Positions 36,930 through 38,341 of a stretch of DNA of 52,602 bases are shown here, piece by piece. Source of the DNA: a bacterium (GTDB taxonomy: Bacteria; Chloroflexota; Dormibacteria; Aeolococcales; Aeolococcaceae). Positions within the stretch are counted from its first letter, which is position 1; each line of letters starts with the position of its first letter. The notes below the pieces were generated by a model. That model had not been told where the DNA came from and searched no databases. It was given only the letters and a program-made list of their open reading frames with translations. The translations under genes were made by a program, and so were the position numbers. The stretch lies in assembly GCA_014874355.1 (NCBI GenBank), contig JACWAJ010000057.1, positions 1-52,602 of the forward strand, read 5' to 3'.

Positions 36930-38063
36930 TCAGGCTGTGAGCGCCTCGATCTCTTCGAGCATGGCGTGGATTTCGGGCTCGGCAAAGTGCCGGCGTGCCG
37001 GTTCGAGTCGATCGATGAGACGGTCAGCCAGGGCCGACTTCGCGTCCATGGGGTGGAGACTGCCGGCAGCGAACGCTGCCTCGACCTCGCTGTAGTCGGC
37101 GAAGGTGATGGGGCCGCCGTTGTCGGCGGCGCGTTCTACGTGGAACTCGGTATCGCCCAGCCCGAAGACAAGATGGTGGATCCAGTCCAGAATCGGATTG
37201 AAGGTGATCTCGCCGGGCGGGCAGAACGCTTTGAAAACCTTCTTGCGGATGACGTCGGGTTCGTCATGGATGAAAACCGCGGAGTTGGGGTTTGACTTGC
37301 TCATCTTCATGGCGGTGAGGACGTAGCCCTGAGTCGGTTCGGGGATGGGCCACACCGGCGGTTTGGAGAGGCCGAGGATGAGTGGGTGATGCACGGCCAG
37401 CGGCTTGATGACCCGGCCGTTGTTGTCGCGCAGGGCGTTGACTGGCATCTGGGAGGCGACGTCACGTGCGATTACGTGCGCTTTGCGCTGATCCATGCCG
37501 GCATGGGCGAGGTGGATGCCGAGCGCAAAGATGTCGGCCGCCTGCATGGCCGGATACATGAGCTTGGCGAAGTCGACATTGTCGCCCTCGCCACGGCCGA
37601 GGATGGTGATCGAGCGCTGCATGCGTGCCAGCGTTGTGTGCTTACCAACCCCGATGACCGTCGCCCAATAGTCCGGGTGGTTGGCATAGAAGTCCGATGC
37701 CACCACGAATTCGACGGCGTCGGGATCGCCTCCGACACACATGAGACCGGCGCGCATACCTTCCGTGAAGTAGCCGGTTGCGATGCGGTGGATGACCTCG
37801 GGGTTGCCTCCGAGCTTGTCGTTGATCCAGGTGTGCCAGTCGGCGAGCAATACGTTGCAGTGGATGCCCGCCTGCATGAAGTCGCGCATCTTGCTGGCGG
37901 CGACAAGACCGGTGCCGAGATGGACTCGGCCCGAGATCTCGAAGCCCAGGTAGTGGTGCAGCGGCATCCCCGAGTCGAAGAGGGCTTCGAGTTCGTTGTG
38001 TGTCAACAGTTCCGCGGTGTTCCGCGAAACCAGCTCACAGCGTTGCGCGGTCGTCAGCGCCAC
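36930..38063 (-). CDS. tyrS: Tyrosyl-tRNA synthetase, archaeal/eukaryotic type
   Basis: YLGFEISGRVHLGTG, LLADWHTWINDK, YPAMQAADIFALGIHLAHAGMDQRKAHVIAR, KMSKSNP, SLHPMDAKSALADRLIDRLEPARR; closely follows the archaeal TyrRS pattern, incl. Tyr-site Y..Q..D. GTG start at 38063 proposed. Confidence 0.9.
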   Translation of the reverse strand: MALTTAQRCELVSRNTAELLTHNELEALFDSGMPLHHYLGFEISGRVHLGTGLVAASKMRDFMQAGIHCNVLLADWHTWINDKLGGNPEVIHRIATGYFTEGMRAGLMCVGGDPDAVEFVVASDFYANHPDYWATVIGVGKHTTLARMQRSITILGRGEGDNVDFAKLMYPAMQAADIFALGIHLAHAGMDQRKAHVIARDVASQMPVNALRDNNGRVIKPLAVHHPLILGLSKPPVWPIPEPTQGYVLTAMKMSKSNPNSAVFIHDEPDVIRKKVFKAFCPPGEITFNPILDWIHHLVFGLGDTEFHVERAADNGGPITFADYSEVEAAFAAGSLHPMDAKSALADRLIDRLEPARRHFAEPEIHAMLEEIEALTA

Positions 38064-38064
38064 T

Positions 38065-38241
38065 AGGAGCGTGTCCCAGTAATGCACCGCCGATGGGCCG
38101 CACCGGCCGCCGAGGTCAAGGAGGCGCCCGAGGACCGCAGCCCGTGTACTTGAAGTACTCGGGCGAGGACCGCAGAAGCCGGCGCAAAGATCGGCGAGTC
38201 GGGGTGGATGCAGTGGTGGTGCATTACTGGGACACGCTCCT
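38065..38241. mobile_element. 177-bp MITE-like element with perfect 23-bp terminal inverted repeats
   Basis: aggagcgtgtcccagtaatgcac (38065-38087) and its exact reverse complement (38219-38241); related copy at 1-138. Confidence 0.75.
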
Positions 38242-38267
38242 CAGTTTCGATACTCCTTTTGCCAAAG

Positions 38268-38341
38268 TCCCAGGGGATGGACTCGAACCATCGATACACG
38301 GTTTTACAGACCGCTGCCTTGACCAGCTTGGCTACCCTGGG
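38268..38341 (-). tRNA. tRNA-Tyr (GTA), archaeal-identity type
   Basis: Cloverleaf by hand: CCCAGGG/CCCTGGG acceptor (C1:G72), GCGGT CTGTAAA ACCGT anticodon arm, 5-nt variable loop GTATC, GATGG TTCGAGT CCATC T arm, A73. Confidence 0.95.

Follow-up and report, generated by a model that had tools for sequence, protein, structure and literature searches.

The bacterial and archaeal identities of tRNA-Tyr are textbook incompatible sets, and the orthogonal pair classically used in genetic code expansion is an archaeal tyrosyl-tRNA synthetase (TyrRS) with its tRNA-Tyr. Archaeal-type TyrRS accompanied by a tRNA-Tyr with a C1:G72 pair has been described in CPR bacteria (Mukai, Reynolds, Crnkovic and Soll 2017; PMC5370408), the reports being limited to Parcubacteria, Microgenomates, Dojkabacteria and Katanobacteria; a first-pass annotation of the present locus had alluded to such a report, for some bacterial lineages, and the work concerns CPR only. 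Two further precedents concern the synthetase. Opisthokonts carry a haloarchaeal-type TyrRS (Huang, Xu and Gogarten 2005, as cited in PMC3191353), according to that citation an ancient lateral transfer of archaeal TyrRS that serves as a clade marker, and bacterial TyrRS occurs as homeoalleles, that is, as two bacterial forms (PMC3191353).

How does the locus described here compare? The window, by which we mean the whole stretch of 52,602 nucleotides analysed, belongs to a genome of 1.45 Mb (G000; 76 contigs, 98.8% complete, 0.68% contaminated) that rpoB puts inside one family, f1, whose class belongs to a large phylum; judging from sequence, family, class and phylum are most likely Ca. Aeolococcaceae, Dormibacteria and Chloroflexota, respectively. 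At a probability of roughly 0.9, we read its archaeal-type TyrRS without S4 domain and its tRNA-Tyr of archaeal identity as the sole housekeeping tyrosine-charging system, which would have displaced the resident bacterial pair. As in CPR, an archaeal-type TyrRS and a C1:G72 tRNA-Tyr are found in bacteria, lateral transfer is the inferred origin, and DPANN and CPR sequences are the nearest relatives. Many CPR tRNA-Tyr, however, are long-armed, whereas every tRNA-Tyr found in a Chloroflexota carrier is short-looped, and the Chloroflexota case additionally offers sister genera with the bacterial pair still in place. The opisthokont transfer, as far as the citing text goes, reached a eukaryotic recipient that was already C1:G72, so that no tRNA identity switch was needed. 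The homeoalleles likewise represent alternative forms exchanged without lasting coexistence, but both are bacterial, while in Chloroflexota the tRNA has been replaced as well.

We found no report of archaeal TyrRS in Chloroflexota or Dormibacterota in the open-access literature. As far as that literature shows, the kind of system is thus known from CPR, and the novelty lies in the lineage, in the clean exchange of both genes together and in how synthetase and tRNA types co-segregate among sister genera.

The pair and the element between its genes

Table 1. Features of the tyrosine locus, in window coordinates
Feature	Position	Strand	Identified by
tyrS, archaeal-type TyrRS, class Ic, without S4 domain	36930..38087	minus	NF006330, Pfam, 2cyc match
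MITE-like element between tRNA-Tyr and tyrS	38065..38241	.	inverted repeat search, genome copies
tRNA-Tyr(GTA), archaeal identity	38268..38341	minus	ARAGORN, Rfam, sequence, alignment

The synthetase, 385 aa long when read from the GTG at 38087 and 377 aa from an alternative in-frame GTG at 38063, carries the motifs YPAMQAAD, MDQRK, LHPMDAK and KMSKS. It scores 388.4 bits against NCBIfam NF006330 (PRK08560, archaeal-type TyrRS; cut-off 220) in a nearly full-length alignment (residues 13–376 on profile positions 3–337 of 342), compared with 97.6 bits against the bacterial model TIGR00234 (below its cut-off of 113.8), and it also remains below the cut-offs of the TrpRS models. The archaeal TyrRS signatures named in the first-pass annotation are borne out. 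Pfam recognises the catalytic/anticodon-binding domain PF00579 alone, and a C-terminal S4 domain was not found in the Pfam search. The protein shares this domain layout with the closest solved structure, Pyrococcus horikoshii TyrRS (2cyc, E=2.4e-123), and with other archaeal TyrRS, although its host is bacterial. When aligned with a Methanocaldococcus jannaschii TyrRS sequence, the residues corresponding to Y32, R132, Y151, Q155, D158, Q173, R174, H283 and D286 are conserved; in the M. jannaschii complex, we take R132 and R174 to be assigned to the 1:72 pair and H283 and D286 to G34. The position aligned with F261, presumably an anticodon contact, is N (or S or H) in the Chloroflexota clade and F or Y in the archaeal TyrRS compared.

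The tRNA gene matches this enzyme in type. ARAGORN calls a tRNA-Tyr(GTA) at 38267–38341 on the minus strand, and the Rfam model RF00005 matches 38268–38341 with 65.5 bits (gathering score 29). The acceptor stem, CCCAGGG/CCCTGGG, gives C1:G72, the discriminator is A73, the anticodon is GUA, and the variable loop is the 5-nt GTATC, which agrees with the earlier description of the fold. The archaeal/eukaryotic identity set (C1:G72, A73, GUA and a short variable loop) is thus present in full, while the G1:C72 pair and long arm of bacterial tRNA-Tyr are both absent; C1:G72 and A73 are tabulated as archaeal tRNA-Tyr determinants (PMC9976931). From these features, the enzyme would be expected to charge its own short-loop C1:G72 tRNA-Tyr and not a bacterial tRNA-Tyr, making the pair a putatively orthogonal counterpart of the bacterial one. 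If charging is mutually exclusive in this way, both genes must be swapped together. The CCA end is not genome-encoded in the window tRNA-Tyr, whereas most relatives in the family do encode it.

The co-directional tyrS lies downstream of tRNA-Tyr, both genes being on the minus strand. The two had been described as adjacent, and they are indeed co-directional neighbours, but they do not abut: a MITE-like element of ~177 bp with 27-nt terminal inverted repeats (38065–38091 and 38215–38241) lies between them. The genome contains about 20 full or partial copies of this element, of which many lie at contig ends and probably broke the assembly; positions 1–140 of the window were noted as another site. 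The dinucleotide TA at or beside the ends of several copies accompanies what we infer to be an IS630-type element. The GTG at 38087 sits inside the terminal repeat and the GTG at 38063 just outside, such that the 5′ region of the essential tyrS is made up of a copy of the element. An AGGAG at 38257–38253, on the tRNA side, may, as a conjecture, be the former ribosome-binding site of tyrS, severed by the insertion. Neither a T-box nor another known leader was found between the two genes, the Rfam matches in the window being two tRNAs only.

Linkage of the two genes, which the same annotation had singled out, holds for this contig but appears less notable, being limited to a minority of genera. 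The tRNA-Tyr gene adjoins tyrS in the window genus, in g181 and g185 and at one Anaerolineae locus (L082), and the three linked genera group together in the TyrRS tree (94/70); in g3, g4, g5, g6, g7, g180 and g184, the genes lie on separate contigs.

The only pair found in the genome, and its distribution in the family

Is this the only tyrosine system of its host? The genome has 43 tRNA genes covering all twenty amino acids, with a single tRNA-Tyr, and a genome-wide search for the second, bacterial-type tyrS and long-arm tRNA-Tyr whose presence would have spoken for an ordinary pair found neither, nor any second tRNA-Tyr. The one other PF00579 protein, encoded on contig C19, is a bacterial-looking TrpRS, its HIGH-like and KMSKS motifs having been read directly from the open reading frame. 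Since the tRNA-Trp has G73, the bacterial identity, tyrosine alone appears to have switched among the tyrosine and tryptophan systems. The only tRNA-Tyr and the only TyrRS of a genome this complete would thus make up a housekeeping pair. Many relatives have a TrpRS-like gene within a few kb of the archaeal-type tyrS, on the opposite strand (G043 C10, G117 C39, G149 C32, G304 C59, G319 C40, G322 C121, G323 C6 and G324 C11); in the window genome, the two genes are on different contigs. The window genome is also small, 1.45 Mb as against 2–4.4 Mb in most family relatives, even incomplete ones, and combines genome reduction with expansion of the MITE.

Metagenome bins are often contaminated, and a likely case exists in the same family (G301, below), so the contig or the gene pair might stem from an archaeon or a CPR bacterium. 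We regard such an origin as extremely improbable and reject it. The genes around the pair, encoding a JAB-domain protein, a TrkA-type channel, an alcohol dehydrogenase, FabH, a carboxyltransferase and AccA, are ordinary bacterial ones; the MITE-like element is common to this contig and many others of the genome; and the TyrRS groups within the clade formed by the family, in which 22 separately binned genomes have the same pair.

Across the phylum, TyrRS above the archaeal-type cut-off occurs in 9/301 sampled genomes: five of f1 (G000, G043, G052, G117 and G149), two of f75 (G250 and G292) and two of f78 (G275 and G289). A further f1 genome, G213, encodes the protein as two pieces below the cut-off and stands outside this count. 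Within f1, for which 32 genomes were available, TyrRS is archaeal-type in 25 (23 above the cut-off plus G213 and G311, where it is in pieces), bacterial-type in five (G301, G034, G305, G306 and G221) and of neither type detected in two incomplete ones (G314 and G315); none has both. The broken genes (G213 C19:4806–5775, in two overlapping frames; G311 C285:8309–9041 together with pieces on C240) reflect either a frameshift or an assembly error.

This distribution bears on whether the pair could be accessory, serving as a back-up in stress, under antibiotics or in regulation while a canonical bacterial pair exists but escaped assembly. An assembly in 76 contigs leaves room for gaps, and TrpRS-A in CPR can coexist with canonical TrpRS (PMC5370408). 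Yet no bacterial TyrRS exceeds the cut-off in any of the 25 archaeal-type f1 genomes; G250, G292, G275, G289 and the window genome likewise come without one, while it is present in 16/16 other genomes searched alongside. Independent gaps in every such genome being very unlikely, and the search of the window genome having returned one tRNA-Tyr only, we consider a back-up role very improbable.

Does the type of tRNA follow that of the synthetase? Of the 25 f1 genomes with archaeal-type TyrRS, 22 yielded a tRNA-Tyr, and in 22/22 it starts with CCCAGGG, ends with CCCTGGGA and has a short loop. Outside f1, 12 Chloroflexota genomes that carry an archaeal-type TyrRS all show the same combination of C1:G72 and short loop. 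Conversely, bacterial-TyrRS genomes with a located tRNA-Tyr show G1:C72 and a long arm in 9/9 cases (G034, G221 and G305 from f1; G109, G125, G004, G093, G016 and G069 from sister families). The two f1 genomes for which no TyrRS was detected have an archaeal-type tRNA-Tyr. The sole exception is G301, with a bacterial TyrRS and an archaeal-type tRNA-Tyr; this bin is 6% contaminated and its TyrRS falls outside Dormibacteria, and the mismatch looks like bin contamination. This co-segregation across Chloroflexota supports the notion, voiced on the basis of the window, of a matched and co-inherited pair, with the qualification that the tree holds 2–3 independent switches only and thus no statistical power (sign test, p 0.5).

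Did the tRNA travel with the enzyme, or was a bacterial tRNA-Tyr remodelled in place, losing its arm and flipping its 1:72 pair in adaptation to an acquired TyrRS? The latter finds a parallel in the many CPR C1:G72 tRNA-Tyr that retain the bacterial long arm (PMC5370408), as do those of the CPR-type relatives L092, L100 and L118 in our set. However, the f1 tRNA-Tyr is almost the same as in Dehalococcoidia-type relatives sharing the same TyrRS and unlike the long-arm tRNA-Tyr of the sister genera over its whole length, and remodelling therefore seems unlikely to us.

A probable replacement and its history

In a careful tree of archaeal-type TyrRS, from which six long-branched rows had been left out (a quick tree was made as well), the f1 proteins are united in one clade (100/96), as are all Chloroflexota archaeal-type proteins (96/94), whose neighbours are CPR and DPANN sequences. 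Sampling relied on a search requiring shared short peptides, with distant archaeal branches thin as a consequence, and the trees hold archaeal-type sequences alone. The phylogeny proposed earlier as a check thus places the protein in a Chloroflexota clade within the archaeal-type TyrRS tree, while its separation from bacterial TyrRS and TrpRS is provided by the profile scores. In the tree of bacterial TyrRS, the f1 sequences, from genera g2 and g8, have f2 as their sister group, with f3 and f4 placed elsewhere, in agreement with rpoB. The bacterial gene of g2 and g8 is thus inherited, and the archaeal pair would have displaced, as a unit, an inherited bacterial pair. The base of f1 is not resolved by rpoB, with which a grouping of all archaeal-type f1 genomes into one clade is compatible (p-AU 0.56); a single replacement and coexistence followed by differential loss both fit these data.

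Could the archaeal identity instead be ancestral in Chloroflexota or older still, most lineages having later taken up a bacterial pair? A single clade of all Chloroflexota archaeal-type TyrRS is what one ancient presence would leave behind, and an archaeal-type ancestral state has been raised before (Mukai 2017; PMC5370408). Such retention nonetheless strikes us as quite unlikely: just the 9/301 sampled Chloroflexota noted above exceed the cut-off, bacterial TyrRS of f1 and its sister families tracks the rpoB tree, and the Chloroflexota archaeal-type clade sits among CPR and DPANN sequences.

Replacement of the resident pair, the reading we prefer, might have proceeded as follows. An incoming pair orthogonal to the resident one could have coexisted with it briefly without cross-charging, after which the G1:C72 long-arm tRNA-Tyr and the S4-domain TyrRS would have been lost together, either shortly after the family arose or in an ancestor common to most of its members, with g2 and g8 retaining the bacterial pair they had inherited. 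The incoming pair would have come most directly from the TyrRS lineage common to Dehalococcoidia/Anaerolineae-type Chloroflexota, and ultimately from CPR or DPANN archaea. Replacement of this sort is tolerated by E. coli, according to work cited in PMC5370408. On a broader scale, we consider it rather probable that this is a domain-crossing tyrosine identity switch outside CPR, in which a co-travelling pair spread between Chloroflexota classes as a unit and, in most Aeolococcaceae genera, took the place of the vertically inherited bacterial one, the original being kept by sister genera.

A phenomenon known from CPR is thereby extended to an ordinary bacterial phylum. Closely related non-CPR genera that use either pair open the natural swap of an essential identity set to study, and the carriers represent a source of archaeal-type TyrRS/tRNA pairs naturally adapted to bacteria that might be harnessed for engineering. 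They also come with a warning for genome curation: a bacterial bin is not contaminated merely because it contains an archaeal-type TyrRS. Separately, among the database relatives, a record titled Alphaproteobacteria (L104) contains an archaeal-type TyrRS of 47% identity whose long branch joins an Andersenbacteria sequence, and is probably a misnamed CPR bin.
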